DNA of 64,000 nucleotides from Protonemura montana (lineage: Eukaryota > Arthropoda > Insecta > Plecoptera > Nemouridae). The notes beneath the pieces were generated by a model. The model was not told where the DNA came from. It searched no databases and saw only the letters and a list, made by a program, of their open reading frames with translations. The stretch's first letter is position 1; every line of letters begins with the position of its first letter. The stretch is taken from assembly GCA_947568835.1 (NCBI GenBank), contig OX387605.1:10668418-10732417 (forward strand), in the 5' to 3' direction. Shown piece by piece: positions 7,301 to 55,100 of this stretch. Both the position numbers and the translations under genes were made by a program.

Positions 7301-10300
7301 GTGTCAAGGTACCTTGATATGTCCCTCGATAGGTACCCTGTCATGTAAAAGTGTCAATGAACTGTAATGTAACTTCTATCCATTTATAACTAGGACTATA
7401 TTTTGTGAATTTGTTGGAAACAATATTTTACCTGTGCGGCTGCAAGTTGCTTAAACAATTTTGCTGCAGGCCGAAAATTAGACATTTTAAAAAAGTATTT
7501 TTTATTGAAATTGGCCTTATAAATTTAGATGCTTGTCCAAAAGAAAATATTACTCTTTTTATTGATTTACACCGCCCTCTTAGTTTTTAATTGCATTTTT
7601 TTGGTCAAATACAGAGCCCTCCTTAGTATATTCGACAGTGTGCTTGGAAAATCTGAAATAGCGAATATTTTAAGTTGGACTCCGATTTGCTTTTACGATT
7701 TTTTCTTGAGTCAAAAACACCAAATCATGAAATACCCCGTTTTCAGAAAAAATCTAAAAAATTATTGGGCGGCTCAATTACGTATTTTTTATTTGGCAGC
7801 AAGCTCCGTGAGTGACGTCACGAGTTAGATACTGGCTGCAGTGGCACCAGTGGTGTAGTCGAGGGTATACGCCGTATACCCAAAAAACTTTTTGACAACG
7901 AGCGTATACCCCAAAAAAATATACAGGGTATACGCCCACTAAATACTCTTTGCAAAACTTTAAAATGCGTTTTGCAACGAAAATTCTTAATCTCCCAACA
8001 ACATGCACTAGAAAAACTCGAAAAGCAAAGTTTATTCCGAAAAGTGGGTAGTCCCTGTATAGTAGCGGTTCGTATGATCTGGATGGGTATGCAATGGTTT
8101 TTCCAAGCAGTCAACGTACTCATTCAAGAGGAAAGCGCGATTGCAGCTACCCCCAACACCAAGTAGTAGTTTTAGTGTTGATAGGAATGAACTATCTATG
8201 AACTATAACTAGTGAATAGACTAAAGGTAAAGAATAAGAAACACCCCCCACCTAGTACCTAACCTAGTGATGACCACGGCATTTGGAACTCACAGCCTGA
8301 TAACCCAGCGTATACCCAAAAAAAATGTAGGACTACACCACTGAGTGGCACTATGCACTCGGTGGGTGCCCGCTTGCCGAGGCTGCTGTCCTGGCTATTA
8401 GTTTGCGTGAACCTTCTTGCGAGTAGCAGTGTGGTATTTTATCTCATGTTTGTGCTTTTTGTCCTTACAATTGTCGTTTTAATTGTAAGCCGACTGCAGG
8501 ATAATGGGGAAACATTGTTGAGTGTACCAGCGCTCAAATGAGTCGGGCAACACAAACTTGATGTCTCTTTTCATGAAAACTTGAGGTCTAAACTGTAAGG
8601 TAGTGCTGCCATTTTCACACTGCTATGAAACCATGCAACACGATCTCGAGCGCGCTGCACCAGACTGACAGCCTCCGCAAGCGGGCACCCACCGAGCGCA
8701 TAGCGCCACTGCAGCCAGTACCGCACTCTTGACGTCACTCACGGAGCCGTCCGCCAAATATAAAAAAGATGATTGCTTCGCCCCATAATTTTTCAGATTT
8801 TTTCCGCACATGGGATATTTCATTGATTGATGTTTTTGAAACCACAAGCATGTCTTAAAGAGAAAATCAGAGATTTACTTTAAACAAAATCTTTTCAGTA
8901 CTTGATAAACTACCACTACTATTGGATCTACTATTGGAACAATAGATATTATCCAATATCCATCAGACTGAAGGATCCTGTTGATTGATTGCCTCTTGAG
9001 GCCTAACTCAAAACGACAAGCCCTAAGCCCTATAAACACTAGGAAAATGTAGAGATAATAAGTGGATAATTATCTTTGTTATCTCCCCAGCATTGGATTG
9101 CCAACAATCTGTTCGGACTTGCATTCTCAATAAACGGCGTCGAGCTTCTTCACCTGAACAACGTCGTTACCGGCTGCATCCTGCTTTGCGGTCTGTTTGT
9201 CTACGACATCTTCTGGGTATTCGGCACCAACGTCATGGTGACTGTTGCCAAGAGCTTCGAGGCACCCATCAAGCTTGTCTTCCCTCAAGATCTCCTCGAG
9301 AATGGCCTCGGCGCAAGCAACTTTGCCATGCTCGGGCTCGGCGACATCGTAGTTCCTGGAATCTTCATCGCATTGCTATTGCGCTTTGACAAGAGGTGGG
9401 CGTGTTACTAATTCACAAATAAATGAGAAAGTTGACGAGTTGCGATAAAATCGGATTGTTAAATTGTTAATTTGTTTAAAATTCAATGAATGTGTGCCCC
9501 TAGAATTTTGTTGAAAACATGTTCCTTTTAAAATTTGAAAGAAACTTTTGAAAGTGCCTTTTTTATTGTATATTTTTTGAACTTCATTTATGCAGTACAT
9601 TAAAGCAGTCTGATTTTAGAAGATCCCTCTTATTTGAACTAATAATCTTTATTAATCTAAATCAAATCGTACACAACTGTTAAAAACAACAAAGTAAATT
9701 AGTGAAACATTCCTATTATATCCATACATTAATTTCAATTCAGAACACATGTGAACCTCGACTTAATGTCTATTCCAGCCTCAACCGGAACAACAATACG
9801 TACTTCTATGTGACGTTCCTTGCATACCTGCTGGGCCTGCTTGCCACCATGTTCGTGATGCACGTTTTCAAGCACGCGCAGCCCGCACTACTCTACCTGG
9901 TGCCCGCATGTCTCGGTGCCCCGCTGGCACTCGCTCTCGTCAAGGGCGACCTCAAGGCACTCTTCCAGTGAGTGACTTTTTAAAATTTTTGGACAGGCTA
10001 AAAATTAAAATATGTGTGCTGACTATTATGGATTTTAGACTCAGGTCTACTTTGTCTGACCTTAGCACTAAATTTGAAAAAATATCTTTACACCTGGGTT
10101 ATGAGTGCTTATTATGTTTCAACTAACTTTCCCAATGTTGTGTAATTAATGCCTGTTACTTTATAAAGGGTGATATCAGTTGTGACATTTCAACTGACAA
10201 AGAAATCAAAGAAATGTCACAACTGTTATCACCCTTGATAAAGAAAAAAGCATAACCCAGTTGTAAATAGTTTTTTTCATGTGTGCTGACTGGTTAGAAA

Positions 10301-17769: not shown

Positions 17770-20700
17770 ATGGAATTGTTGAAGAATTGGCGTTCGATAT
17801 CCACGTGCATATTATGGCTCTGCTGGTGCATTGGTGCCCTCGACTCCGGAGAGAATCTGCACAAAATCACCATCAATCCCACAGCAAATGCAATAATGGG
17901 TAAGCAAAATTGCTTCTTCGTTTCGCTTGTATCCACGCTTCAAAACTGCATGCCAGAAAATTTCATATTTTCTTCATTTTTTGCTATTTCCCACGGGCGT
18001 ATTTTTCAGTTTTACCACAGATTTTATTACCTTTCATCAGCTCTTCCCAATTAGAGAACAAAACGCAAGTTTCACCATTTAGGTGAGAGATCGCAATCAC
18101 ACGCAATGCATTTGTACATAACTACGGTAGGTGCATGTATATTATTGGTTAATATAATTAATCCCTTTACCTGGAAACAAAATTATTCTTGCTCTTGCCA
18201 TTGGTTACCATTTTCAAGTTCAAGGATAGTTCCTCGACCTCTGATCGCGACCGCCTCTCACAGTAAACACCCTTGCACTTGTGTCGTCCACTTTCGTCCG
18301 CTACCGATTGCCAGAGATGAAGGTCATGCAAGGCCAACCCAATTCCGAATCTATTGCTTCTGAAGTTCGACTTCAGGTTTATGGAATTTGTGATCATACT
18401 TGCATTAGTACGCGTATGCGAAATGTTAGGTACCTATTCAGGTAGGTAGACTTATCAGGGCACATCTTTTTACGCACAAATTTCGATTTACTTGCGTGAA
18501 TTTCTGCCTCCTTGGTCTTACTCCTATCAATAGGTTGTGGTCAATCGGATGACCTGAGATCTTTGCCCGAGATTATCCCAAATAGGGACCGGCTGTTGAA
18601 CGGGGTTTGCGTCCGTCAATTGGCAAACAATGCAATGTAAAGAGTGTACACCAAAGGTTATAGTTGTATCTTTGGTGTATACTGAGCATAGGAACTTTGG
18701 AGCCCACTGTTCATGGATGACTGCATGTGATATCCATGTAGTGTCGTGGTAAGGTACATCTTTGAATCACAATCTCTTTTCTATCTCATCGCACATCTAA
18801 TATTCTAATGTCCCTGAGAGGCTACATGATTCCGAGTTTTCTGCAAAATACATTTTTTTTCTTTGCACTGTTTAGAGATATAATCTTGCAATTTTGGAAA
18901 TGTTATATTAGTCAGTTTTTTCGCCTTCAGGACAATTTTGGATCATTTTTGGGTGTTTTTTTTTGTAATTTCTCTATTTTTAGGCAACATTAACCTATTT
19001 ATTTTGACAACTTGTCACGCTGGGTGGCGCCTGAGAGTCTGGGTGGGTGGGGGGGTTTATCGTCTAATAACATGGGGCCCTGCTGAACATACTGCTGACC
19101 CGAGTTACCGAGGTAGCTCCAGTTCAGCATTCTGTCAGCATTCTGTTAATGGTTATCTGGGTTCCCTTGGGCAACATTGGCATTGCACCTTGATGTCCGT
19201 CTACGTACACATTATCGCAGTTGACAACGGGCGTTATTTTTCCAGGGGCGGTGGTCCAAGTCCAAGAGAGAGGCATGGGGCTGTTTGGGTGTGGCCCGCC
19301 ATCCAAAGAGGGTATAATACGTGTTGAAGCCATGCGCTGGATGACCAGCATCCTCAACCAGGAGTGGGCCAACCAGACGTTCCTTCCAAACATCACAATA
19401 GGCAAGTTTGCTAAGTTTTAGAAGCCAAATGGCACTCGTCTTTTGCGTTTTATTTCAGCTGTTTTTTTCGTATTTTTATGTGAAACCCAATCTCTTTATT
19501 TCTCTCCATAGAAAACGATAGAGTAACAAGGTTGCAGCACAGCAAGTTTTATTTTTAGCACAAGGTGTATTCATATGATGCGAGCAATATAAATTGTGGT
19601 TAAGGAAGCTATTTCGTGAAATAGCTGACAGCAGGAAGATAGGCTGCAAAAATTAACTTTGCTGGAATTTTGTTGGCTTGTGTTATGCTTGCTTCTATTA
19701 CCCTTCTTTCACTAACGACAACCCCTTGGCTGAACAGGCGTGCAGGTATTTGACAGCTGCGGCCGGACTCGTGTGGCTGCCTCACACCTGGGTGAGCTAC
19801 TTCCGATGTTAAGGGGCGACGATGGTGCTCGGCCCTCTGCAGATGCCCAGCCTCCTCTACAGCTGGGCCTCATCGACGGCGCAGGGCTACTAGCAGACGC
19901 GGAGGTTAGAGATACGCTCGAACACTTCCAGGTGCCTGTCGTAACGATGGACGCGGACACCATGCTCGTAGCTGCGGGCCTCCGAGCAAAGGCAAGTCGA
20001 ATAATCGCTTGCACCAGAAAATGTGGTGTTCAGTTGCTGAGTTGCTGTGCAACTGGCATAATGATTTCCTGTTATTTCTAAAATTTGATTTTCTAGTTTC
20101 GTTTATATGCAGTACCTAGTGAAAGATTGTATCATTTCTTCTCAATCCACATTTAATATTTGTATTAGATATAATTGTGCATCGTACTATTCTTTTGAAA
20201 CCTTAGGTTTATCAAAGCCAATTTTCTTAAACTACTTTCTTTTGCAGGCAATGGTTGCAATGACGTCGCATTTAAACTGGCAAAGTGTTGCAATTGTTCA
20301 CGACAACGACTACTACAGCCTTCAGATGGTTGACACATTGATGAGTTACTCTCCGGATGAGGGAAGGCTATTTCTCAGCGACATAAAATCATTCGCGCCG
20401 GGGTATGATGTTTTGAGCAACTCTGATTCCACCAATGAGAACTCAGTCACTCTGCAATTGGTATCTTCAGCTAGACACAGCAATACGCCTGTTATGGTTA
20501 TAATGCATCCATTTGCTACGAGGAATTTTCTTGAAGCTCTTGAACATGAACTCAAAGCCACAGAATCAAGAAATAACAACACTTTACAAATATTATTCTC
20601 GAGTGTCTTGACACACGACGACTTGGATTTTCTCTCAGACAGAGCAGATGTTTATTCTGCTATGATTTCTCCAAACAGTATTGGAATATTTGAAAAATAC

Positions 20701-23700
20701 TGGACTGAACGAATTGATCTGCTAAAGGTAAGAGAAACATAGTAGCTCACATTAAGATTTATGGGCTCAAATTTGAAAATTTAATTTTTATTTTGTAGGT
20801 GGAATTGATTAACTTACATTTGTTGGGTGCTGTATAACAAGCACAGCATACATTATTTTTATAAAGCATCAGCTCTACCCTGAGGCTGGTTGTACGTTTA
20901 ATTAATGTAAATAGCACCATCTCAAACATCTAAGCAAATAAGAATTTAAACAAGAAATAGAAACTAATCCATTGAAACATTCTACTTTCTACCAGATGTA
21001 TTTTACTAGCAATTTATTTAACCCATTTCTTTCAGAACATGACAAAGCCTTTATTACTTGAGGATAAGTGGGTGTTTGACTACATAAATTCCGAGTCATA
21101 CTGCTCGGCGGAAGACTGCACAGAGGACGAACTGGACGTGGCTTTGCGAACCTTGCAAGTGGTATCCGCTGGCCGGTCTGTTCTAACACTGGCACAAGCA
21201 TTGAAGCATGCGTGGCAAATCAAGTGCTCCGAAGAGTTATGTTCTACAAAGCAAATGGCAGCTGCGGCAAGTGAAGGAGATGTGCTGCTTAGGCCACATT
21301 CCGACAAGGGGTGGCTGAGAGAAGTGAACGGATCTCTGGAGTTGGAGCTAGTCAGATATCAAAGCAATAACACGGATGGAAATATTCTCAAAAAGGTAGG
21401 TTTATGAAGACACACAGAAAATGTTGCTCGATCTTTGGTCATGGCGTAACCACCAGTGGCCGAAGCCACAAACCAGAGTTTAAGTTTATCACTTAAAGAA
21501 GATTAGCCAATCACAGACTGTGTCAACATTTTTAGTGGTTTTACCACGGTGATAACAACTTAACCCCCCAATGAATGGGGGGTACGCTTAAGCTCTGCTA
21601 TGTAAATCTGGCCCAGATTATTAATGGCAAATATTTCTTGAATGCATTATTTTTATAACTATATCTGTAATTCTTAACGGTCGCTTCCAATTCATAAACG
21701 GTATATGCTTGACGCCTTTTCTTTTATTTCTGCAGATGAAGTTGATTAATCAATATGACCTTATCAAGCTTGAAGAACACTTTAAAACTGAGCACATCGA
21801 AGGGTATGATTTCGGTGAAGCACCAACTCCACCACCAATCAAGAGCACCAATGTAACTACCTTGGCACCAACAACACAGAAATTTATCGAAACAGGTCGA
21901 TACATTGATTCATCAAACCAACAATCTTTGTTTGCACTGGGGAAAACTGAAGCAGTAATGGTGCCACTAGAAGCGTCAAATAATTATCGGATTCTTGTGC
22001 CGTCGAAGGATAATTTGTACATCGCTGCATTGTTTGCTGTGCATAAAGAAACTCGTGGCCAGTCTTTGCTGCAATGCAACAGCAACGATGATGACTTAGA
22101 TCTCAGTGCAGTCAGACAGCTGGAAGCGTTCCTTTGGGCTTTGAAGAGAGTCAACGTCAAGGTATGCAAGACAGGGTCTTTTTTAAGGTTTCTGGTATAT
22201 TGGGCTATGGATGGCCAGAGCATTAACTTTTGAGTTAATTTAAAAATGTATTCCGTTAATATTCTCTGCCAGAGAGTCTGGTCTTTAAAAAAAAATTTTA
22301 TGGGAATTTACATAACCAGTGTGCTGGATCTTGAGCCAAAGAAAACATCTTCCTGATTGAGAATCGTAAGAATGACCACTCAGGTCCTCATTTGTTTGAA
22401 AAAACTTGAAAATCCAACCTCGACTGATTATCTCGGATCATTCCAGAGTGGAGTTGAGATTGGCGCTTTCTTGCTTGACTCGTGCAACTCTCGACTACGT
22501 ACGATGACACTGACTGCGGGTCTGGACAGCCAGCACGTGCTCGCTGCTATCAATGCTCTGCCCACTGCTGATGCCACCGTGGCCGAGGATATTATGGCAG
22601 CTATCAATATCACTTCTGTCACCACCGGTCATGCTCTTGCTCTTGTTGACACAGCGGATGGAGGAACAGTCAGCCCCTACATTCTACAGGTGATTCTTAA
22701 AACCTTCGGAAAAAACGGCAAATGTTACATACCATTACTTATTATAGTATTTTTATAGGTAGTGAATGCCTAGCACCCTTCTGCTACTTACATTTATAAT
22801 TCTTTTGTATTCCTAAGTTCCACATTATCAACTTTTCCTCCCAGTTACATTGTGTATCTCTAGTTTCTTTCTTCCGAACAATTATAATATCCATGACTTT
22901 GCATTTCACATTGTTACCCAGCCAATGATTTGGCCTCATTTGTGTCAAGGCAGTTGTGATTATTGGCAATTGTGGTAACAGAGTGGTTATATTCATTTAT
23001 GTTTTCCAAAGGTGGAGGCACCAATGTCTGCGCTAGTTTCGTCTATGGTGTCAGTGCTGAGACACTTAGGCTGGACATATGTCAGCGTCGTGTTTTCCGG
23101 CCATGGGGAGTTCCTTGCCGGCGTCAAACTATTCCAAATCGCCGCAGCCAAGGCCGGCATTTGTCTAGCACTTCAGGAAGACATACCCGAGAAAAACAAC
23201 GAGGCTGCGGTAAGAAATAAAGCCTTGTTAGAGATTATGTTTTTTCTCCAAATATTTTTTTTAAGATCTTAAGCCATCAAAAGTGAAATGAATCCAAAGG
23301 ATAATGTCGAGCAACATTAATTACAGTTAGAAAGATGTGATTGGTACATTTTTTTTGAAGAAAAAAGAATAGCAATGAAATGCACAATAAATTGGTTCTG
23401 ATGTTTTAAGACAAGTAAAAAATACCTATATTTAAAAATCTGTGTAACTAGAATTCAGTTTTCCTAGACTCAACATTCCCTCTTTTATTTCCCATTGAAA
23501 TGGACTTCAAAATCAAATTTTTGTAGGGAAGAATCCCCTGAGACTAGATATTCAAGACAACATTTCTCAGTAGCAAAGGTAGACAGAGAAACTATTTAGC
23601 ATTGGTGTTGTTCAATCCAAGTAAATTCCATGCAAGGCCATACCTGTGACTTTGAAAGTGGAAAGCTCTCCCAATTTCTACCAGTCAGCCTCACCCAGTC

Positions 23701-26700
23701 CAATCATACTGCCATGTGCATCTGGCAGGTGGATGCCCAGATGGTGTCGCTGATCCCAAGTCTGGTGGGCGCTCGAGCCGATGGAGCACGAGGCGTGGTG
23801 CTCTGGACAAACGAATACCACACGAAACGGCTTCTGCAAGCGGTGAGCCAGGCAGTGGCCTTGGGCACCGTGGCACGTGAGGACTTCTTCTGGATGGTAG
23901 CAAGCCCCAACGGGGGCCGCACAGACCTACTTAAACAGTTTAGTAATGTCCTGGGTGGAGCACTAGTGTTCAGGTCAGTGCTCGCAAGGAGGGTAACAAT
24001 AAACGTCTGTCGCTACTCGCTAATAGAAAATGGTGCCAAAAAAGTCACATAAAAAATTAATTACTCCTTTTTATTTTAGACCATACCATCGACCCATCAG
24101 AGAGTTTCAGCATTATTTACAGAAAATTCATTCTAACTTCAAGAACACCAGCAGAAGTAGTAACCCGTGGATCAAGAAGTATATCGAACAGGTAAAATAA
24201 GTCCTAATATCAAAGGTGCATTAGCAATTTATGATAAAATTAGATCATTCCCAAGTTTTTCTAGTAGAAATTGTAAGTTACCCAGCTCCTGGAATTACAA
24301 ACACCGAGTGAAAGATGAAAATCCATATCACCTACCTTGCATCATAAATCAGGTAAATCGCCTACCTAAATCTTTTTTCTCTGCTTGCATCAAAGATAAC
24401 ATAACTTCTTGATCAGATGTCTGACAATAGAGAGCTAAAACTACAAAATGTGACTAGAAATCTTTTGATTTTGAGATAAAAAATTATACTAACAAAGATT
24501 GTGACTGCATCGTAGCAATATTATCAACGTAAAAATTTCACTGGAATATGCTCAATTGAGCAACATTGCATTGGTCAACTTGTTGCTGGATCTCAAAATT
24601 TCCAGCTGCAAAGTTTCTAACATATCAACATATTTTATTTTATTTATTTATTTTTTTTTTTATTTAATGTCTTTATTAGCTTGGTTCAGCTATTTACATT
24701 GTCAATATATAAGTCTCATACTCTATAATTATCATTACACATTTTAATAAATTTTGCTCTAAATTCTTTAACATTTTCAGCCCTTTTTATTAGTATTGGT
24801 AGTTGGTTATACTCTCGTATTCCATTATAGAAAATTGATCTTGCTGATTTTGTGGTTTTGATGCTGCTTAGATATAGAGAATTGGTAGTTACATTTCTAG
24901 TTTTGTGGGTATGGAGTATGGGTATATAAAGGTAAAATGCCTTTGTACCTAATGAGCATTCTTATTCCCCCAAAAATGTTTTACCAGAATGAATATTGAA
25001 TGCGAACTAAAATGAAAGGAAACGTAGACATGAGTTGAAAAGAAAAAGTACCCCAAAGCCTACATGGTCGTGATGCAATGCTATGCTTATAGTGTGAAGA
25101 CATCGAGTGTTTCTTCCACGTCGAGACTACTTTTCCCGCGGACAAAAACACAGTACAGGCAGTGTATGCTGTGGGTGCTGCCGTGAGCCGTGCTCGAAGT
25201 CAGCTGTGCAGCAACTCAACTTCAACGCATCCCATAGATGGCCTCTGCTCCGGCCAGTATAGCAGGTTAGTACCTGGTGCTTTGTGGGTTACCAAGGCAT
25301 AGGAAAGCACTTTTCAATAGGTGGATTGCAATAGGATCATGGCCTAAGGAATTTCTTTGATACAGCTCAGTTCAAAACCCTGGTTTGTTCAAGTAAATAA
25401 ATTCCAGTGCACTGCTAATTGATATATCGTGATCGTGATGTATGAAGCATGCTTCTAAAATAAAAATCATCTTGGCCGGATATTTTTCTATGGGTAGAAA
25501 CTTGTGACCCAATCTAAAAAATGAAGATGCACAACTTTGAACAAAAACATCTATTTTAACCATTTTAATGTATCTCTTTATCGTCCAGAGTGGAGCTTCA
25601 GCAAGTATTAAACAAACAACTACGGCAATCAGTGACCGAACGAGCAGATGGAGCTGCAAACGAAAACTTCAGATTCACATCATCTGGGGCTGGAAATGTG
25701 GCGGTTGAGATTTTAAACTTCAGACGGAAGTCAAATGAAATGACCCGCTCCTTGAAAAACATCTACTTTGAAAGGGTAGGATGTTTAAAATTTTTGAAAT
25801 TTGTGACAATGTTTTGTGTGTTTAAAAAGCTACAAGCTATTTGAAAGCTCCTTTTAAGTAAGTAGGTTTCAGCATTAAGTTGTTTGCTGGGTGTGGGACT
25901 GGATTATTATTTTGTGGACTGAGAAAATTAGAAGTGAGCATTGTTCCAAACACTAGAAAATGTAAACTCTTACATAGTCTTACATAGCAAAAAAACGGCG
26001 AGACTCTGCAACCTCAAACGGGCGGTAGACGGTAACCCGGGATGGGTAGAGTGGAGGGCTAAATTAGACCCCTCAAGAAAAGAAAAGAATTTAAGAGAGA
26101 GAGGAGCCAGAGGCGACGTGGGCAAATTCTCCCAGGTCACTAGGACCATACGGGAGTGGAATGCCCTAAAGACTGAGAACCGAGCCAAAGGAATAACTAT
26201 TGCCAGATTCAGAGAAATCATTTCTAACAAAAGTTAATCTCCAACTCCGAAATTTTACATTATTCCTAACATATTGTAATTGTTCCTAGCATATTACTTT
26301 TGTTCCTAATCTACTATATCCTAGCTAATATATTCTATTCTTATGTTACCATGTTATTATTACTATATTATACTATGTTACTTATATCACTATTATAGAT
26401 TATCATATTCATTATCATACTCATCATATTATGTATTAAAATGATAGCATTGTACCTAGAATAGTTCCTTACCAACGTGCAATACCATGTACAATTGTAA
26501 GATGAGAAATAAATATCAATATCAATATAGCAGATAGTGCCTAGCCTTACCCCATCAACGTATTTTGATTTCCAGGTCGGGTCGTGGATCGAGGGAAACC
26601 TAACAGGCGAGATATCCCCTATGGTAGCGTACCGCGAATCGGGGACAGAGACACCGCTGCCTGGGCTGACTTCTCAGTGCCGAAGCAGCAAGTGCTGCAG

Positions 26701-29700
26701 CTCTGTGTTTAGTGCCGACCGGCTGACGATACAGCCGCACAGCCAAGAAGAGGACAATACACCAGTGATCTACGTCGCCGCCACGTTCGGCGTACATGAG
26801 CCAGATGCCAACCCGCTAGTGTGTGGGGTGGACATAAACAAGGCGGGTATAGAACAGCTTGAAGCGTTCCTCTGGGCTGTCGATCAGGTGAGTGCTCGTT
26901 GGTTTTATTATTTACTGATTCTGAAGAACCTTGGATAGTGCTATAAAGTAGTGCAAGATTTATGCACAGGCTAGAGGATTCCTAGGTCAAGGCTAAGAGT
27001 TCCACAAATGAGGAAGTGCTAAATGAAATGCAGCTGAGGTGAAGATATGTTAATAAAACAAGTAGCTTTTTTCCATGTAGTTGCAAATTTGCCAACTCAA
27101 CAAATTAGCTGTTCTTATAAATGCGTGGTATGCCAAACGTTAAAATATTTCAAAATGTTAGAAACTGTATACTCATTGCTAGAGAATATTCATCCTACAT
27201 CATAACAAGAATTGGGAAAATCTGTTAACTTGAAATTTCTTGTAGGTAAACTTAAATAACACCCAGTTGCGGCTGGCCGCAGTTGTGCTTGACACTTGTG
27301 GCAGCATTGTCAAGACGTCGCGCGTCGTTACGGACCTGCTGTCAAACCCGGCTAACAACAACATCGTTGCGTTGATTTCCGGCGATGGAATGGAACTCAC
27401 CGACCCGCTCCTTGACGTGATCGGCCACCTGAAAGTGCCGGTGCTCTACGCCCAAGCCAGCGGTCCTCCCGCCCACAGGAAGACTCACTCACCATATCCA
27501 CTACAACTTGCTCCATCCAACATAGCGCAAGCTGCGGCGATACTGACTCTGCTTGAAAAATTGGCTCGCAAGTGCGCTACGGTTTTCTATCATCAGGACG
27601 GTGGAGAGTTCGAAGAGATTTTTAAAATCATCGAAAGTCAAGCAGACATGGCTAACATGAAACTTACTGGTATGTTATTTAAGGTGAACCCAGAAAAATA
27701 AATCTGTTTATGCCTAGATCTTGAATCCTAGATCTTTGTGTGTGGATCTTGAAACATTTGACATCACATCAACACTGCGCTAGTAAGGCCAATAGTGGAA
27801 TTTGAGAGAATCATATGGGATCCATAAAGACAGGGAGAGACCCGAGAGGTGGAGAGAGTTCAGAGACTGGCAGCAAGGAGAGTCACAGGGAGAACAGGAA
27901 GGTTTAGGTGGGAGAAGGAGATCAGAATGATAAAAGCCCAGCCGTAATGATATGGGAGTTGGGGTGGGAGAGTCTAGAAAACAGAACATTGGAAAGTATT
28001 CGTTCACTAACAGAACGATAGAGCAGTGGAATGAAATGTAAGTAGGAGTCAAGATCAAAGCTAAGGAAATGTCTGCCGAAAAGTTTAAAAGCAGCTACGA
28101 CCAAGATGTCGAATATCCCTAATTGTACAATGCACGTGTTCCTATAGATTAAAGTAGAACTTATGACTTAGTCCACATAAACTCCATTATCATATCTACA
28201 TTATTATCATTATATTATTAGTATTATTTTATTATCATTATATTATTAGTATTATTTTATTATCATTATATTACCTTACCACCATTACTTAATTGTACAA
28301 TTGTAAGAGGAATGGAAATTACACTAAATTAATGCTCAAAATATTGTGGCAGTAATTTTAACTAAAAAAACTCTTCTTGGCATAATATTTAGTTACATTA
28401 TACATTACATTTTAAAAGTTAAAAGTTATGAAAGAAAAGTGTTAAACTGGTCCAAATGGAGGTGGAGAAAAAGAGTAGATTACATTATTTAAAAATCAAA
28501 TTTATTGAAGGTTGTAACAATCACACATTTCTCCCCAGGGGTCGCAATACCGGTTGCCTCTGTCAACATATCGGACGTATTGCGGGAGTCTTTCGGATAT
28601 ACGACGACACTTCGAGATAACAGCACCGCTGCCGGGGTTTTACTACTGCCGCAAAAACGTCTCGACTTGCTCTTGCGAGCTGTTCACGTTCTGGATGACC
28701 AGGGGCAGTTGAATGCAGCGCACATCACGTGGTTTTCCTTGGGATCTGATCAAACTCTCAAAGCTCACAGGTTTGGAAACATTGGGAACATTGCAGAACA
28801 TTAGAAACATGTAATTGGTCAAGCAAATCCAAATGCGATTGTAGTACAAATATCTATACCTAAAGATAAACTCACCAGAGATTACCATTGACAAACTGGG
28901 AAGACGATCGTACAATTACAATAGCAATTGTGTCATTGGCTGGCACCAGGGGAGGTTTGTAACTTGCTTGATGGCATTTTGCTCTCCACCAGGATGCACC
29001 AGCTCTGAGCGAAAGCGGCCTCAACCAAAGACATGATCACTAGCTGTTTCTGCATTATTTTTTTTTTAAATTGCACCGTCCAGATTCTCCGGGCAAGAAA
29101 AGTGTACCGGGGGCAACCCAGTGAAACACGCAGATTGCTCCCGGTGCTCACCTGGGTCGCACTGAGGCAGCCAGTCGAATACGCCATACCGACGTATCAG
29201 CAGTTCAGGATGACCATACCCATTTTTTGTGGTGGAACTCTTTCGTACTCTTGATGGGGATCGTGTAAATATAAATTGGTCAACATCCACAAGATCAACA
29301 TTTTTAAATTGGCACCATGCAATAAACAACACTCAGGATGAAAATGGACTCCTGAAAGTAAGGCACACATGCTCTCAAAAGCTAAAGAGTTGTGTCTCGT
29401 AATTCTGGGAAATGAACTTAAGTTTGTTAACTAAAGTGTGAAAACTAATAATTTAGCGGAGAATCGCTGGGAGTGCTACTGCTTCGCTCCAAGGCTAGTC
29501 GGGTTCTTGAATTTGAGGAGCACTTCCGCAACCTGACCCTGGACGGGAACGTTCGTAACCCGTGGTTCCGAGAGTTCTGGGCCAGGGTGTTCCACTGCCG
29601 GGGTTCCGTTTGCAACAGCCAACAGAAGCATAGCCTACACAGCTACCAACTCACTCATGTTAGTATTTAGGGGGAAAACTAAAAAATGTATGCACCAATT

Positions 29701-32700
29701 TATTTCAGTCTCCTAAAAAATTTGAATTGTTTTAGAATCACGCTGTTGTGAACACCATTAATGCAGTGCTGGCTGTAGCCCATGCCCTTGAGACTGTAGC
29801 CAGAGACCTTTGTCCAGGTGAGCAGAGCCTTGATTGATTTACAAAATTATTTTCAATTTAATTTTTGCTGTTTTTTTTTTTTTTTTTTTAATTCGGCTAG
29901 AAACAAGATTTTGGCTTACTTTTGAGAGAAAAAATCTAGTACCGTTCAGTATTTCTGTGATTTTTTTTAGGAACGATTGCCAATTCTTGTGCAATGGCCA
30001 GCAAAGTAGTCCGTGTTCGGCAGAGATTGTTCGAAGTGACGCCTCGAATGGCATTCGTTGGAGTCGGCATGAATGCTGTTGCATTTTCAGTCAATGGCGA
30101 GAATGCTCATGCAGGCATTGAAGTGAGTGCTGATTCTAACTCTTGATGACAACTTGATTGTGATAGAGGAGATCAACTGATTATAAACTTTTTGCAGGTG
30201 ATGAACCTCCAGCCTAGTGGACTTGAATCTGTGGGATACTTTGACGCGAGTGGAACCCCACTACTGAACGTCACTCAAATAAAGTCCTACGTGTCTCGAA
30301 ACAGAGTTGAAGTGTTGTTGCGAGATGTCAAGCCGTCATGTTTCGGACGGAAGTTACAGGGAACAAGGGAAAATTCGGCACATTTAATTGAGGTGAGAGA
30401 GTAACTATTGAGTAGTTCTAAGGTATTTGATACAGCTCACATAGCTCACAGCGTAGGTATAGCTCACACTTAGTAGGTACATGCATTTTGTATGCCCATC
30501 TACAAAGCCATTTATCAAAAAATTCAGACTATATTTTTTGTGAGAAAGTTATGAGGTTTAGTATTTGTTTTAAAGTACAGTTTCCATTAGAATATATCTG
30601 AATGCCTTGTTTCCATCTTTATAAAATTCAATCAATTTTCTGCAAAAATCATAATGTACAGTCATAAATCATAATGTAAAGGATTGAAAAGGATCTTGAC
30701 CCATCTGTTATTTCCCAATCAGATCTTTCTTAGTGCAAAGCAAAAGAATAATGCAAATTTATTGTCTATTGGCAATCTCAGTGACAGACAGATTCCCTGG
30801 CAATCAATCCAAGGACTGGACTTTAAATACATGTGCGACCATGTCTCAGCTTTCGCCAAACCGGCACCTTTCGCTGCTGGGCGTGATGGCAGCTGGAGAG
30901 GCTGGCGCTGGGATGTTTGCATGCGGTCCGACGCATCTCGCTGCAAACCTCCAGCTGGCGGCGTTACGACTAGCACTGGACCAAGTCAACCTGGACCCTG
31001 CGATACTGCCTGGCATCCAGCTCGGCCTCACTGTGCTCGACAGCTGCTCACGGCCTGTAGCCGCACACAACGCCGTCTACAACTACCTGGCTTCTACAGG
31101 TAGGCCACTTTATTTGGTCACACATGCTTTGGATTTATTCAAATCATTGTTTTGCCAAAACATAAAAAATGCATACTTACAATCTATTGCGGTAAGTAAA
31201 GACAAACAACATTTGTATTGCAATTATTTATTAATTTGTTTTGTCATTTAGCTGTAAAGACTCATCAAATACACTTACATCATCTCAAAGAGGTTGTGTC
31301 AAATTAGCATGGATGATCAATCTAATACCTGCCAAAGGTGGAGATATTGGTTTGATTCTCTGATAAAGTAAAAAAAAATGAGAGAGTAGCAGTATTAGAA
31401 TGAAATCTGATTTAAATTGCAAACGCTTGCAATGCGCGGGGTATTTTATTATTAACAACACTATAACCGACTCAAAAGTTGATGCCCAAACGCAGACTCG
31501 AACCCCGATTTCCACCTTTCGCGGGTGTTGCTCTGAACCATTGAGCTATCTGGACACTGGCTTCTTGAGACGATTTTAGTGTATTTGATGAGAATGACAG
31601 TTCTCCAAGGAGTAGAACCATGAGGCTGTGAAAACTCACAGTCACTCTGATTCTAGTGACGCTATATCACGTCACAACCTGTCAAACTTGAATAACTCCA
31701 ATTTGACGTTGGATTCGTTGCTGTAGCAGGATAAAATCTGATTTAAATTGCAAACGCTTGCAATGCGCTAAAATACAAATAAAATAATAAAATACTAATA
31801 ATTTACTAATAATAATAATAAGAAATAATAAAATACACTAAAATCGTCTCAAGAAGCCAGTGTCCAGATAGCTCAATGGTTCAGAGCAACACCCGCAAAA
31901 GGTAGAGATCGGGGTTCGAGTCCGCGTTTGGGCATCAATTTTTGAGACAGTTATAGTGTTTTTAATAATAAAATAGAGAGTAGCAGTGTTTGTAAAAACA
32001 ATAATAAGTTTGACAAAATGGTAATCTTCTTACAGACCCTGACGGAAGACTGATGTCGGAGGACATATTTGCTGCGGTGACCCTAGATGAGCCATCAGCG
32101 TCTACGGTAGACCAATTGCTTAGCGCCCACAACATAGCACAGCTTGTCGTTCCGGCCAACTTTTCTGTCCTGCAGTCTTATCAACTGTTTGGTTCACCCA
32201 GCCAGGAAAAGGTGAGAAAATTAGGTGAATGGTCAAAGAAAACTAGCAAATTTAAAAAAGAGCGTCATGAATAACCATGGAATTGGTACAACGTTATGTG
32301 TTATTACTACATTATTTTCCTAGCGAGAGATTTTCTGAGTGTCGTAATTTTGTAAAATACTCACTGCATGATGTGGAGTTGGATTTTTTCAATGACTAAA
32401 ATATGCACTGATTCAAAGACTATTTTAATTTTTAATTTAATTTTTTTTAGATTGCCCTTCAACTGAGTGATAGCCTTCTCCATGCCATACTTTCTCTCAT
32501 CCATTCTCTAAATTCCCATTCATATTCAATAATCCGAGGGAACACTTCAAATGCAGACTACCTCACTCAGCACCTTAAAAATCAGTCAGTTTTGGGGCCT
32601 GTCTGTCTGGCCGGAATCTACACGTTAAGTGAAGAACAGCTCTCGGATTCGGGCAGGTCAATGGTTAATGAAGAGGTAGCACAGCTTCTGAAACCTGGAA

Positions 32701-35619
32701 CTCTTGTGATTCTGTTGGTGGAAGACCCAATCCAGATGCAACAATTCTTAGAAGCATGCCGAGGATTTCACAGCCTCATTTTCTTGGCAGTGCTTCATTC
32801 TGCTGAATTCAATTTTAATGGAGGTAAGCCACTTAGGTGTTGGTAGTTTCAAGGATACCTTTCAAAGGGTTTTGGTAACCAAATTAGATATTCAATAAAA
32901 TAGGCAGTATAAGAAAGCAATTCACGCCGATTTGACACATCAAATGTGTGTCTTTGTGTTTTTGTTCCTATGCCCCTTGTTAACAGTGTTGCTTGATTTT
33001 GTTGCAGGGATAAATACGGTACTAAACTTAAGTCCGTCTTATTACGTAGAACAACACTTATCAGAGATGGCTGCTAAGTTTGCAAGATCTCTCAGTTCCA
33101 AGCAAGCCAAATTTCTCGAGTTTTCAATGGTGAATGATACCAATTCCTCAATAGTTACTAAAGAATCTCATCAGCACCTAATGATGTTCAAGAAGATCAT
33201 GGGTTCAGTTATTATCTTGTCGAAAGGATTACACAATTTCATAGACAGACATTGTCAACAGAAATTTGATTTAGGTGCACTTTCTGAATGTATAATGCCT
33301 AGAAGTGAGAACAGAAATATAAGGCAGATATTTTGGGAAGAAATATACCAGTCATTCCCAAACTTTTCATTTGATGTGTGGAATCAAAATGGACCAATAG
33401 GAACATGGAACAAATCATACGGCTTGAAGATAACAGAAAAACTGCCCAAGTAAGTTGAAACTCTTCTACTGCTCTTTACACCATTCTTTGCTTGAGGAAA
33501 AATTGAAAATTGTTCTCCATTTTGTAGAACATTCAAAATTCTAAAGATTAATTGTATATTTTTTTGTTCTATATTCCATGCCAAAAAAAGTTACGAAAAA
33601 TGCATTGTTCTTATCAGATTAAAAGGTCTCAAAAACACCAATATGATTGATTACTAATTATTTTACGTTTATCTCCAATTTCCTTAGATTTATATCCGAC
33701 TGCCGATCCCTTGAGTGCACAGCCTGTGGTTCGTCTAGGCGTCACGACTCAAACCGACGTACGAGTTTCTACCACAACCTGCAACACCCATACTCTGCCG
33801 TTCTCGGAGGCTTGGCTCTGCTTGGAGCGTTTCTCACAATCCTTACTACGGTCTACTTCCTGGCCGCTGCCGCGATACCCAACAACAATGTCACGGGAAG
33901 CACTTCAGTGCTTGGCTACTTGATCCTGCTCGGGCTGATGCTGTTGTTTACGGCAAATCTGAGCTTTGTGCTGATACCCACAGAAGTAACCTGTGGGGTG
34001 AGAAGATTCCTGCCAGGCCTTGCATATTCCATGATTATTTCTGGCATGTTGTTGAAGGTATATGCTTATATTTTACATTTTCTTTTTAGTTAAAATGTAT
34101 GTTCAAATGTATTTGAGAAGATTGGACAACAATTTAAAAAAATGTTGTGCTTCTTCTGCAACCTAGGTGTAATATTTTCCATTAGCGACACATTACATAC
34201 AACAAAAAGGCCAGTAGCTCCGTTGAAACTAGGCCCTTGCTGATCTTGCATACCAGTCCAGTAGCTGTGAATAAATTTATTTGCCAAATGTTTTTACTTA
34301 ATCAATTTCAAAAGCATGCAGACTCTGTCTGCTCATATGCAACTTAATAACAAGTATACATCTTTCAAAATCATCTCTTTCTTATCCAGGTTATCGTAAC
34401 GCTGCGTTACGGAAGGATCTCGAGCCGAGGTAAAGATGTTCTGAGTCGTCCAACGGCATTGGTTGTTGCCGGCTTGGTTCTGACACTCATTCAGATCCTT
34501 CTTGCGGGCGGCTGGTTGACGATTGTGCCGCCGAGAATTTACTCACTGGGGGCGTTAACAAACCCAGCCACTTGGCGGTGCTATCCGAGCGGCAACTTCC
34601 ACATCCACCTACTACTCTCACTCACATACATATTCCTGTTGCTTACGTTCACAGCAATATTTGCACTTCTGTGCATATTGAGGTAGGAATAACAATTTGC
34701 TTCTTACTAACCATATTGTTTTCATGAGTCGTATGAAATAGGCAGGCTCATATTATTATTTTTATAAAGTAGGACTGTTCTAAAATTTCATGAAGATATA
34801 CGAACTATTTGAAAATTCATAAGAGTTAATGCTAGTCATCTTTCAGCACATATAGACTTATTTTCTGGAAGGCACCCTCTGAATTGTGTTTCGGTTCTGT
34901 TGTATATTTTTTCAGTTCTCGTCGTAAATGCCTGGGGGAGTGTTTAGGTGAGGCTGGGTGGATCATGGTATCCTGCATCTTAGTGACAGCGGTCTTCACT
35001 GTTTGGGGCATTGCTGCCGTTTCCTTCTTGACTCCTGGTCAAGCAGATCTGGCAACTGCTGCCGCTCATTTGTTAGCGGCCTACGTGCTCCTCCTCTGCC
35101 TCTATGTGCCAAAAGTCATACTCTATTCAAGGCTTAAGTCAGAAAAGAAAGTGGCGCAGAGTAATTTGCACCCCGTCTATGATATCACACATTTCCAGCC
35201 ATCAACACTGAAAACTATACCAAGTAAGCATGTTGGCCCCAGAAGGTGGCAAAATAAATTGATTTTGAGATATCCATAAAACAAGCATTCTCAGTCACCA
35301 TGCATAATTTGTCTGTAAATACTCACCTGTTTCAGATTTTGCCTCACCAATCTTAGGAATGGGTACGGACATGATGGAAGTAGATGATGATCTACTAAAC
35401 GACCCAACGCAAGTCGTACCAAGTTCTCTGTATTCACTGTCCATGTTCAGTGCAGGGGATGATGAATGTTCCGATGAGAATGCAAGTCATTATGAGCCAG
35501 GCACTAATGAGTTTACTGTGCCGGTTCATCTTTCGAACCCTCTGCTTGGTCTTTCCTCCACGCTGGATTCAGACTCCACACTCGGTATGCCTAAAATGAG
35601 CAATTCTTCTCCTAAATAA
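17770..35619 (+). CDS. Class C GPCR with four tandem Venus flytrap modules, 27 exons
   Basis: Class C GPCRs sense extracellular ligands through a Venus flytrap (VFT, ANF-receptor) domain coupled to a 7TM core. Here 27 exons join in one frame to about 2,352 residues. Exon 1 encodes a signal peptide (MELLKNWRSISTCILWLCWC). Four VFT modules follow, each with the mGluR-like strand ending D-S/T-C: VFDSC (about 101-103), LLDSC (613-615), VLDTC (1108-1110) and VLDSC (1585-1587), spaced 477-512 residues. Two modules keep QLEAFLWA before it; VGSWIEGNL recalls the mGluR VFT end. Instead of the nine-Cys domain there is CRSLECTAC, then seven hydrophobic spans, a TM3-region Cys (VTCGVRR), an ECL2 Cys (TWRCYPSG) and TM7 LYVPKVILYS (YVPK about 2219). 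Introns after exons 2 and 3 start with GC. The start of exon 20 (30850) is the weakest boundary. Ligand unknown; possibly an arthropod orphan receptor group. Confidence 0.88.
18643..18683. repeat. Small inverted repeat in GPCR intron 1
   Basis: AGTGTACACCAAAG and CTTTGGTGTATACT form a 14 bp stem with one mismatch around a 13-base loop. No function or family can be assigned. The rest of this intron (17900-19245) shows no feature I can support. Confidence 0.45.
24630..24930 (-). mobile_element. LINE 3' end fragment in GPCR intron 10
   Basis: Read on the minus strand, about 24925-24735 encodes a stretch containing SLYLSSIKTTKSARSIFYNG, then REYNQLP and VKEFRAKFIKM, typical of the C-terminal end of CR1/Jockey-type LINE polymerases. 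An AT-rich tail follows, ending in a poly-A (poly-T on plus at about 24630-24665). Only the 3' end is present, so it is a truncated, dead copy. Confidence 0.7.
25960..26530 (+). mobile_element. LINE 3' end fragment in GPCR intron 12
   Basis: A frame from about 25985 to 26237 ends with RTIREWNALKTENRAKG and then ARFREI, the usual R-x-W-N-x-L plus F-(K/R) ending of non-LTR retrotransposon ORF2. It is followed by an AT-rich 3' UTR and the simple tail AAATATCAATATCAATAT. The 5' portion is absent. Confidence 0.7.
27770..28320 (+). pseudogene. Degenerate LINE 3' end in GPCR intron 14
   Basis: Translating 27780-28120 gives broken segments such as RPIVEFERIIWDP, REVERVQRLAARRVTGR and FTNRTIEQWNEM, which match the conserved end of LINE polymerases (Y/FxxxxWDP, QRxAAR, RTIxxWN). 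Stop codons and frameshifts separate them. An AT-rich 3' UTR with short repeats of TATTATTAGTATTATTTTAT follows to about 28320. Confidence 0.65.
31378..31590 (-). mobile_element. tRNA-derived SINE copy, minus orientation, GPCR intron 20
   Basis: The minus strand of 31555-31484 folds as a complete 72-nt tRNA cloverleaf: acceptor GTCCAGA/TTTGGGC, D-stem GCTC/GAGC, A-box TAGCTCAATGG, B-box GGTTCGAGTCT. The anticodon loop lacks the universal T33, so it is unlikely to be a working tRNA. A non-tRNA body follows, containing GCGCATTGCAAGCGTTTGCA, also found at about 31745-31770. Confidence 0.75.
31720..31990 (+). mobile_element. tRNA-derived SINE copy, plus orientation, GPCR intron 20
   Basis: A second 72-nt cloverleaf of the same family lies at 31862-31933 on the plus strand, with the same acceptor, D-stem and B-box and a better-paired T-stem. 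Upstream at 31735-31770 is a piece of the SINE body in the opposite orientation, so this region is a composite of at least two insertions or an inverted rearrangement. The flank AAAATCGTCTCAAGAAGCC precedes the tRNA part in both copies, so the repeat unit extends 5' of the tRNA region. Confidence 0.7.
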
Positions 35620-36697: not shown

Positions 36698-38082
36698 CTA
36701 TTTAGCAAACCCAGGCTTCAATTCAACTTTTCCTTGAAATTGTAATTGATTATCAATGATTTGAAACAACTCAGGTGGCTGCGGTATTCTTCCAGTTTCT
36801 AGTTTTGACCACACAGGGACATCTGAAATCATATATTATATTTTAGAACTGTAGGCACAGGAACTCTATTAGTTTCATAGGAAATATAACAAGATAGGAA
36901 AGTAATTTTATCCATGCTTTTACCATTAAAATATATTTCAAATGCTCCCGAAGATATGAGTTGGCCTTCGATTGCGTTGCACAAGAAGAACAACATCATG
37001 CATGAATAAAGTTTGTTTGTGATGCACCACGTCCACCACGCTGGCGCCTCTGGTTGTCCAATCCACGTAAAAATGTTAGCACTGCTCAAGATGCAGACTA
37101 TAAATAACATTTTTAGCGCTCCCTACATGAGGATACAAAGGGAAATTAATTGTAGTTATTAAAAAGTCATCACCACCTGCAAGTCAAGTATGAAGCATTA
37201 AATTATCAGAACTTAATTTTAATAATTATGTGTGAGTATAGTGTGTTTAACAGCACTGCTTTATTAGAGCAAATACCAAAGTTCTACTTGACTCACCAAA
37301 AATTTAGCTAAATACATGTTGGCTCCATTTGGGTTGTAGTTATCTCCTTCAACTACAATCTCCGGATACTTCTGTTGTATTATGGACCCATATTCTTGGA
37401 ATGCCTTTTGATAACCACATGAGTAACTGAAAAGAGGTAAAGTAAAGATAAAGTAAACTCATAAACGCAACACAACTAAGATTAAATTGCTAACTGACTT
37501 CACCAGCTAAGGGAGAAGGAAATATTGTTAGTGTAGAAGTGCTATTGTTTGATACCTAAAATGGAGTTTCAGGTACATTGCATTGATTTTAAATGTACAT
37601 GTTTCAAGTAGAACTTACGTAAGAATCCAGAGACACCCAGTTTGGGCTAAACCTACAATCGTCAAACGAGACGTTGGGTGTTATCGTAAAGTGATCTAAT
37701 GATTTTGAAAATCTCATTCATCAGCTTAAAACAGTCGCCACCCAAATCATAAAATATAATCTGATGGTACAGGTGGTTATGTAACCAAAATAGTACCAAT
37801 GGTTTTGGAGGAGTTCGTTTCAAGCACGAAGTTTATGCACAGTGCAATGAACCTAGATTATCACTTTCTAGTTTAACTAAACGTAAGCTTCATACGAGCG
37901 ACAAATATTACTTACCAATATTCAAATCTCAGTGTAGGGCCCATAAACTTACTGCCATCAAACTTGGTTACTGCAGGTATTTCCTTGGTATTTGATTCTG
38001 ATTGCACAAACACATTTCCATCCGACAATAAACAGAAAAATGCAATTACGGTGATATACACAACTTTCCTAAAATCAAACAT
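36698..38082 (-). CDS. SELENOT: Selenoprotein T homologue, Cys form, 4 exons
   Basis: SELT is an ER-resident thioredoxin-fold oxidoreductase of the Rdx family. Exons 38082-37916, 37426-37297, 37122-36924 and 36822-36698 join in frame to 206 residues, close to the family length. A hydrophobic N-terminus (MFDFRKVVYITVIAFFCLLS) serves as signal or anchor. The redox motif is C56-Y-S-C59-G-Y, where vertebrates have CxxU: the fourth position is TGT (Cys), so no selenocysteine recoding is needed. The conserved membrane segment (MLFIVCILSSANIFTWIG) and the end YSCMMLFFLCNAIEGQL, SGAFEIYFN, DVPVWSKLETGR are clear. The gene is head to head with EB1, with 803 bp between start codons. Confidence 0.95.
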
Positions 38083-49160: not shown

Positions 49161-49904
49161 TGTAAGATTTGTAAGATCTGTAAGATCACACTACAACGCT
49201 GAAAATATCGCATCTCGTCAAGGTTTGCAACAAGTTTTGCAACAAAAGTCAGAATATCACATATTTTTAACTCCCGATCGGTCCTATTTTGAGGCGTTGC
49301 CGACGCCTAAAATTCAAAGCTATAGTTAAAAAATTTGTGTCAAGTAGCTGGGAACGAATGACGTTGTCAAGAAATTTAGTTTGCCTGTGAAAACTTTGAA
49401 GCAACTCGTGGTACGCGTGATTGCTACGGGACTGCCTATACGTACGGTTAATCCAACCATGACAAGTTTCAACTGAAATAATCGTCTAAAACGAAGCGAA
49501 AATTTGTCTCTTCGTACCAGGCGAGTAGCCGACAAAAGAGTATCGCCTGAAACCTACTGCATCGCTGTGCAAGTGACGTCACAACACGTGCTCGATCGTC
49601 CCCGCCAGTGTCCCCGCCTCGTACTTTCGATCGACTGAAGCTCGGTTCCTATTGGCTGACCGGTTTTCGAAGTGGATCGCGGTGATAACAGCAATGGCGT
49701 CCACGGCTGCTATCACAAACAAAATGTTTTCCAGGCATGCAGATGCTAAAGAACTGCAAATTCTCGTACTTTAATTGCGGATATTTAATTAGATTCATTT
49801 TAACTATGTTAACATTTGTTAGATGTGAGTGTTCTTGACCAAATCAAGTCACACAGCGGGTCCAATTGCTTACGAGCCCTTCTCGAATCGTTACACCGAA
49901 CGGT

Positions 49905-50130
49905 TTGGCGTGCTGGAAACACCGGTTCTCGTGAGATCACCGACGTTAAGCAACACTGCGCCGGGTCAGGTATTGGATGGGTGACCATCATACACATGAT
50001 CAGTTATGTTCGGGAGAGAGGTTGGAGGAATGAAAGTTAGTACAGCAACTACATTAGCCTTGCTTATCAAACACTCGACTGCGTGGATTTGTGGAGGAAT
50101 CCTGCTGTTCGAGTTGCACCTTCCTTGAGG
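49905..50130 (+). mobile_element. 5S-rRNA-derived SINE with recognisable 5S head, left arm
   Basis: Positions 49910-49986 align to eukaryotic 5S rRNA: AAACACCGGTTCTCGTGAGA, then TCACCGACGTTAAGCAAC (A-box region) and GGTATTGGATGGGTGACC (C-box), with the spacing of a true 5S gene. The 5S 3' end is replaced by ATCATACACATGATCAGTTA and the SINE body. This is the design of SINE3-class (5S-derived) retroposons. The mirror copy is at about 54870-55100. Confidence 0.75.
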
Positions 50131-54869: not shown

Positions 54870-55100
54870 CCTCAAGGAAGGTGCAACTCGAACAGCAGGA
54901 TTCCTCCACAAATCCACGCAGTCGAGTGTTTAATAAGCAAGGCTAATGTAGTTGCTGTACTAACTTTTATTCCTCCAACCTCTCTCCCGAACATAACTGA
55001 TCATGTGTATGATGGTCACCCATCCAATACCTGACCCAGCGCAGTGTTGCTTAACGTCGGTGATCTCACGAGAACCGGTGTTTCCAGCACGCCAAACCGT
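54870..55100 (-). mobile_element. 5S-rRNA-derived SINE, right-arm copy
   Basis: Mirror of the element at 49905-50130. The 5S-like head (TTGGATGGGTGACC to AAACACCGG) reads on the minus strand from about 55091 to 55013. It differs from the left copy at a few bases, for example within the A-box to C-box spacer. Confidence 0.72.

Follow-up and report, generated by a model that had tools for sequence, protein, structure and literature searches.

Class C G protein-coupled receptors (GPCRs) carry one Venus flytrap (VFT) domain per subunit and signal through dimers, and in the metabotropic glutamate receptors (mGluRs) the VFT is followed by a nine-cysteine domain. A single VFT is likewise present in the class IV mGluRs, which are of the insect DmX type. 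According to PMC12716839, metazoan architectures combine ANF with NCD3G, ANF without NCD3G, or Cache with EGF, and in the GABA-B receptors the VFT joins the seven-transmembrane (7TM) domain without a cysteine-rich domain; this agrees with the premise of the original prediction that known class C receptors bear one VFT per chain. In the sections considered here, PMC6307864 distinguishes mGluR classes I to IV and lists five mGluRs for amphioxus, with tandem domains unmentioned, and it describes class IV as occurring in invertebrates and not in vertebrates, with the glutamate-binding Arg78 and Lys409 replaced. Among the matches listed from the full-text literature, with subscription journals and preprints outside the coverage, there was no description of a class C receptor with several VFTs per chain.

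The receptor encoded in the window analysed here, a stretch of 64,000 nucleotides from the plecopteran Protonemura montana, resembles the mGluRs in the sequence of its VFT and 7TM regions (profile match to mGluR7 of 367 bits, with mGluR2, mGluR3 and mGluR4 also matched), but it has four VFTs instead of one, its cysteine-rich domain is a stub, and in the arthropods examined the amino-acid pocket residues are lost. It resembles the GABA-B receptors in having no cysteine-rich domain between VFT and 7TM domain, yet it possesses more than one VFT and a 7TM sequence that is closer to mGluR and CaSR. Its family, like class IV, is found among invertebrates and not vertebrates as far as the named matches go, and class IV has its glutamate contacts replaced; however, class IV retains, according to PMC6307864, the amino-acid-backbone contacts that the window receptor has lost. 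Venus kinase receptors are also invertebrate and VFT-bearing, but have one VFT, a single transmembrane segment and a tyrosine kinase, while in the bacterial sensors EvgS and CdgH several VFT-type domains are arranged in tandem and feed a single signalling output; these are unrelated proteins and offer an analogy only. The window receptor is a real, ancient and apparently undescribed variant branch of class C GPCRs.

Gene structure and neighbouring features

The gene model was reassembled directly from the nucleotide sequence, with open stretches linked at consensus splice sites. This independent chain reproduces exactly the 27 exons and 7,059 bases in a single frame that had been predicted originally, extending from 17770 to 35619 on the forward strand and encoding 2,352 amino acids plus a stop codon, with no internal stops. 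Of its 26 introns, 24 are GT-AG and two are GC-AG, the latter following exons 2 and 3 with the same strong donor (AG/GCAAGT).

The modules are numbered V1 to V4, V4 being membrane-proximal. Exon 1 (17770-17899) contains the start codon and an N-terminal hydrophobic, signal-peptide-like stretch, recognised by eye. V1 is encoded by exons 2 (19246-19401; 28 of 51 aligned residues identical in the cockroach Periplaneta), 3 (19738-19991), 4 (20248-20727) and 5 (21036-21395), and exon 6 (21736-22161) carries the V1-V2 linker and the start of V2. The latter module continues through exons 7 (22447-22689), 8 (23012-23209), 9 (23729-23973), 10 (24080-24191), 11 (25093-25265) and 12 (25589-25775) to exon 13 (26576-26887), which includes the V2 end, a cysteine stub and the V3 start. 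V3 occupies exons 14 (27246-27669), 15 (28539-28770), 16 (29457-29658, with an NPWFREFW motif), 17 (29736-29817) and 18 (29971-30122), and ends, with its linker, in exon 19 (30198-30392). V4 follows in exons 20 (30850-31099), 21 (32036-32211), 22 (32451-32823) and 23 (33008-33449). A second cysteine stub and TM1 to most of TM3 lie in exon 24 (33688-34057), the end of TM3 to TM5 in exon 25 (34390-34682), TM6-TM7 in exon 26 (34916-35223), and the cytoplasmic tail and stop codon in exon 27 (35336-35619). All exons rest on the exon chain; exons 2 to 23 are additionally placed by the Periplaneta alignment (exon 13 also by linker comparison), exons 24 to 26 by Pfam and hydropathy, and exon 24 by the 7TM alignment as well.

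Among 15 AG sites considered as the acceptor of exon 20, those in phase were 30682, 30814, 30850 and 30901; 30682 was rejected as a stop is met at once, and 30850 was taken by eye. A cysteine-containing frame at 29084 was considered as the missing cysteine-rich domain and rejected, since it meets a stop after 26 codons and the V3 frame runs on without that stretch. Aligned to Periplaneta protein P0001, the window protein shows 1,011 identities over 2,295 aligned residues, with only two gaps of at least 12 residues (14 and 12 residues, both inside V1), and all 27 exons have an aligned, partly identical counterpart. The gene model is thus complete, as far as comparison with the cockroach can tell.

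Intron 20 contains two tRNA-like sequences in opposite orientation, at 31481-31556 on the reverse and 31861-31936 on the forward strand, called as Ser and Leu; they are identical to each other at 72 of 76 bases and are probably SINE copies or the arms of an inverted repeat. Elsewhere in the window, reverse-strand exons at 36700-37450 with YSCGYQKAFQEY and NKLYSCMMLFFLCNAIEGQLISSGAFEIYFN belong to a SelT-like gene, with a cysteine codon near 37405 standing where vertebrate SelT has selenocysteine. Forward-strand coding stretches at 9100-9968 (FVYDIFWVFGTNVMVTVAKSFEAPIKLVFPQ, MLGLGDIVVPG) resemble signal peptide peptidase, the WD-repeat-like coding stretches at 803-1441 (reverse) resemble Aladin, and the helicase-like ones at 62949-63992 (reverse) Aquarius. 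An open, reverse-transcriptase-like frame of about 490 residues at 51949-53418 (reverse) probably belongs to a non-LTR retrotransposon. Finally, a 431-base unit occurs as inverted copies at 49585-50015 and 54985-55415 (423 bases identical). Both copies contain the same coding-like stretch together with a 5S rRNA match that scores 54-56 bits; the unit is perhaps a 5S-derived repeat or a 5S gene unit.

Four VFT modules on a single 7TM core

The original prediction of a multi-VFT class C receptor had been set against an outcome of fewer than three VFT domains in profile searches. Pfam supports the prediction, recognising four stretches of PF01094 (ANF_receptor; 196 bits, cut-off 25.4 bits) and one of PF00003 (7tm_3; 93.7 bits, cut-off 33.5 bits) in the window protein, and when the modules were excised singly, V1 to V4 scored 30, 68.2, 73.6 and 43.7 bits against PF01094, all above the cut-off. 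An HMM trained solely on modules from eight arthropod homologues, whose module boundaries had been set earlier by an HMM that included the window, also found four modules: V1 (17875-21365, residues 36-450; 211 bits), V2 (22000-26590, residues 549-993; 311 bits), V3 (26753-30257, residues 1048-1476; 313 bits) and V4 (30853-33411, residues 1523-1922; 154 bits), all on the forward strand and all spanning introns. Aligned by hhalign to an mGluR VFT profile consisting of mGluR7 and two Actinia modules, V1 reached a probability of 99.7 and the other three 100, and the nearest solved chains to V3 are mGluR1/2/3. The repeated D-S/T-C strand ends that had been noted at residues of about 103, 615, 1110 and 1587 correspond to C103, C615, C1110 and C1587, which are invariant across ten aligned arthropod sequences, the window included.

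The 7tm_3 domain (33782-35114 on the forward strand, spanning introns; residues 1967-2222) coincides with seven hydrophobic segments. A hydropathy scan of the entire protein gave eight runs, two of which overlap, and hence seven separate segments, all within residues 1972-2226; no hydrophobic segment was found between modules, which indicates that no module has a membrane anchor of its own. As to the earlier claim that the chain runs from one signal peptide to one 7TM domain, the 7TM part is borne out by Pfam and hydropathy, while the signal peptide stays a reading by eye that falls below the hydropathy threshold. The architecture of four VFTs and one 7TM domain is near certain. The protein thus displays two class C superfamily features, a 7tm_3 domain and extracellular VFT domains, and its four modules set it apart from the mGluR/CaSR/T1R subfamily, where one VFT per chain is the rule.

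Linkers, 7TM core and cytoplasmic tail

At the place of the mGluR nine-cysteine domain, alignments locate a three-cysteine stub (C1940/C1945/C1948; 33701-33727, forward strand). Pfam found no NCD3G (PF07562) match at E ≤ 1 in the window protein, nor any in seven family homologues, and the profile alignment to mGluR7 covers the strand pair after the VFT and ceases to be alignable past the first cysteines. A remnant of the approximate form C-x(2-6)-C-x(1-3)-C follows all 14 modules of amphioxus, Lineus and Limulus (the third cysteine is absent after Limulus V3), so that the repeat unit consists of a VFT plus a truncated cysteine-rich domain. A looser two-cysteine pattern, counted without a background control, lies ahead of the 7TM domain in all 13 rows that have four VFT hits and in 28 of the 30 that have five (these 30 include four arthropods with a split or broken module); of the 13 four-hit rows, only seven show it after the third module. 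The linker that follows V1 in the window lacks cysteine altogether, and the one that follows V3 retains a single one.

The 7TM alignment comprised 49 sequences, the window and the non-family Actinia included, after four of 53 with an incomplete 7TM domain had been dropped. The receptor has the TM3-ECL2 cysteines and the K3.50/E6.35 pair, hallmarks of class C, in common with mGluRs. The TM3-ECL2 cysteines are present in all 49 (C2037 and C2122 in the window), K3.50 in 45 (K2058), and E6.35 in 43 with a further five having D (E2168); W6.50 was left out, as the mGluR7-profile alignment fails to place it. With these hallmarks kept, the core looks competent for G-protein signalling, judging from its residues. 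The solved 7TM sequences nearest to the window (37 distinct ones with E ≤ 1e-5) comprise mGluR and CaSR chains exclusively, with no GABA-B among them.

The cytoplasmic tail carries the motif DPTQVVPSSLYSLSMFS (35401-35451, forward strand); nine of 13 insect homologues share its pattern DP(T/S)Q(V/I)(V/I)PSSLYS with the window. Of the remaining four, P0005, P0006 and P0010 stop before the tail and Ischnura P0011 is without the motif; it was found in none of the non-insect sequences of the homologue set used for the 7TM and tail alignment.

Relatives across Bilateria

Three protein searches, each of which scored the approximately 8,000 candidates sharing most words, yielded 52 cluster representatives. 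Actinia tenebrosa P0026 was rejected as a family member, as its model is a fusion of two ordinary receptors, each of the form VFT-NCD3G-7TM, which leaves 51 members, 19 from arthropods and 32 from other animals. Matches to a cockroach and a katydid protein, with E = 0 over 97-99% of the length, exclude chance. Insect relatives occur in Periplaneta, Cryptotermes, Diploptera, Blattella, Anabrus, Schistocerca, Timema, Ischnura, Thrips and Frankliniella, chelicerate ones in Limulus, Tachypleus, Uloborus and Dinothrombium, and crustacean ones in Oratosquilla and Daphnia, while outside the arthropods there are many molluscs (Octopus among them) as well as a nemertean (Lineus), a brachiopod (Lingula), amphioxus and an urchin (Diadema). 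The named matches, drawn from the best ~8,000 word-sharing candidates per search, contain no holometabolous insects, hemipterans or vertebrates, which suggests lineage loss in these groups. Database names are mostly 'uncharacterized' or 'hypothetical protein', with some 'family 3 profile domain-containing'; the names 'Metabotropic glutamate receptor 5' on P0013 (Frankliniella) and '3' on P0049 (Octopus) are probably mis-annotations.

Modules were counted with a family HMM seeded partly with window modules. Four were found in the full-length arthropod models and in Diadema, and five in amphioxus, a nemertean and the majority of molluscan models; among the 32 non-arthropods, 26 have five hits, and one more, P0035, has five with the first split. 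Exceptions to five are Diadema (four), Bulinus P0021 (four, the first truncated), the shorter Branchiostoma floridae model P0022 (three), Lingula P0025 (three) and Elysia P0052 (three, without a 7TM domain). Among arthropod models that are partial or have split hits, P0010 lacks the 7TM domain, P0005 and P0006 end inside it, P0009 begins inside V2, P0006-P0008 miss part of V1, and the thrips models match V4 in part only. Pfam, applied to eight proteins, recognised four stretches in Periplaneta, Limulus, Uloborus and Diadema, five in Branchiostoma and Ruditapes, and three in Lingula; these seven family proteins are without NCD3G, which the eighth, Actinia, has.

Fusions such as P0026, in which VFT-NCD3G-7TM occurs twice in one model, demonstrate that adjoining single-VFT genes can be read as one by an annotation or assembly artefact. 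For the window gene we regard this as very improbable: there is a single 7TM domain with no hydrophobic segment between modules, and module order and identity are the same in full-length models of insects, chelicerates and crustaceans. Indeed, it is the alignment of every exon to one Periplaneta protein, together with the collinearity of the modules across arthropods, that speaks against a fusion. Single open reading frames of 2,767-2,893 amino acids in seven 'lgn' proteins, a label we take to denote read assemblies, argue in the same direction. Their contigs, of 8.6-11.1 kb, are barely longer than the frame, as against 26 introns and 18 kb in the window gene, and are therefore most simply mRNA-derived. 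Six of these proteins resemble mollusc rather than insect sequences (53-81% identity to named molluscs), and P0050, at no more than 35% to anything compared, is too divergent to place; their support for a single multi-module transcript in insects is mollusc-like and hence indirect.

Evolution of the module array

A module tree was computed from 59 rows of 13 species, and a bootstrap tree from 48 rows of ten of these species, with Diadema, Lingula and Dinothrombium omitted for their long branches. The first modules fall into a single clade (support 99 in the 59-row tree; 100/99 in the 48-row tree). Arthropod V4 and lophotrochozoan V5 group together (96; 97/96), and the membrane-proximal module is thus conserved by position, with amphioxus V5 falling outside this clade. 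V2 and V3 of arthropods pair as sister modules (99; 100/99), and V2-V4 of lophotrochozoans are united in a clade of their own (100; 100/100). The placement of amphioxus V2-V5, Diadema V2-V4 and Lingula V2-V3 is weakly supported, as is the split between the family and three outgroup rows with a single VFT (44; 93/70). These clades indicate that the bilaterian ancestor possessed a minimum of three modules, namely a first, a middle and a last one, and that the middle ones expanded separately in arthropods and lophotrochozoans.

The sister relationship of arthropod V2 and V3, and the even number of modules in arthropods and the urchin, would suit a monomeric receptor in which internal VFT pairs (V1-V2 and V3-V4, or V2-V3) stand in for the dimer partner. 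Given the five modules of most molluscan models, the nemertean and amphioxus, and the three of a Lingula model, internal pairing fails to explain the whole family, although it is possible in the four-module forms; we consider it an unlikely account.

Identity between the window and Periplaneta amounts to 56% for V2 and 53% for V3, and to 35% for both V1 and V4, the poor conservation of which could reflect relaxed function. That V1 and V4 diverge fast and that the window V1-V2 linker is left without a cysteine might even point to a decaying gene, but an open frame of 2,352 codons with consensus splice sites and the conservation of the tail motif and the 7TM hallmarks make decay scarcely credible.

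Ligand sites

The modules were scored against an alpha-amino-acid signature of five positions (S, T/S, D, Y, D), taken from mGluR work, in five of the 32 non-arthropod receptors and, for arthropods, in the window and nine of the 19 homologues. Of the 22 non-arthropod modules, seven bear the signature in full (Ruditapes V4 and V5, lgn P0023 V1 and V5, Branchiostoma V2, Lingula V2 and Diadema V3), with at least one such module in each of the five receptors (two bivalve-type, Lingula, amphioxus and urchin). It is complete in none of 40 arthropod modules, of which 19 score 0, 15 score 1 and six score 2, the best arthropod value; window V1 to V4 score 1, 0, 1 and 0. The window receptor is therefore probably no free-amino-acid sensor at the classical site, to judge by these residues. 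The mGluR-like Actinia outgroup modules themselves score 3 and 4 of 5, so a missing position is no proof of lost binding, and at this low identity the columns for Y230 and D312 in window V3 shift between two alignments, which leaves single columns unsure.

A re-tuned pocket in insects found no support either, the classical pocket columns being no more conserved than random ones: among 5,000 draws, fractions of 0.62 (V1), 0.73 (V2), 0.31 (V3) and 0.97 (V4) were at least as conserved as the pocket, with 6-10 sequences each. These conservation values and the window signature scores lend no support to the original suggestion that several ligands could be sensed. They also lend themselves to another reading, namely that the upstream modules of arthropods are spacers or arms for adhesion or dimerisation that bind no small ligand, with V4 or no module gating the 7TM domain. 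The absence of any complete signature in the 40 arthropod modules, 19 of them at zero, fits this reading, but V2 and V3 are the best conserved modules, which implies a sequence-specific role, and a non-classical ligand site would escape the signature test; on balance, we hold it to be somewhat doubtful.

Proposed mechanism and implications

The explanation that we prefer, at a probability of roughly 0.72 as a whole, is a single-chain class C receptor in which V4 drives the 7TM domain, V1-V3 modulate it, and the ligand in arthropods is non-classical. Its gene structure, four modules, 7TM core, multi-phylum collinearity and loss of the cysteine-rich domain are established from the sequence. In operation, a short stalk would carry the signal from V4 to the 7TM domain, a coupling like that of GABA-B and unlike that of mGluRs. 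V1-V3 may influence V4 by additional sensing, by modulation or as partner domains, and closure or reorientation would perhaps be handed from module to module along the chain. The receptor would signal through G proteins, and, with the modules of the arthropods examined devoid of a classical alpha-amino-acid site, its ligand would probably be a peptide, another metabolite or a cell-surface partner. More tentatively, and with rather less than even confidence, one may envisage a bilaterian-wide class of receptors with three to five VFTs, fixed ends and an expanding middle, in which a chain of flytraps computes on several inputs, and in which an ancestral amino-acid integrator was re-targeted in arthropods after loss of the pocket.

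There is no vertebrate and no holometabolous insect among the named matches; if this absence is real, it would explain why work on fly and mouse has missed the family. A conserved family with several VFTs per chain constitutes a natural system in which to explore whether a chain may contain its own dimer partner, by what route a VFT acts on a 7TM domain when no cysteine-rich domain lies between them, and how several chemical signals might be combined by a single receptor; its carriers include the experimentally accessible Octopus, oyster, locust, cockroach and amphioxus.
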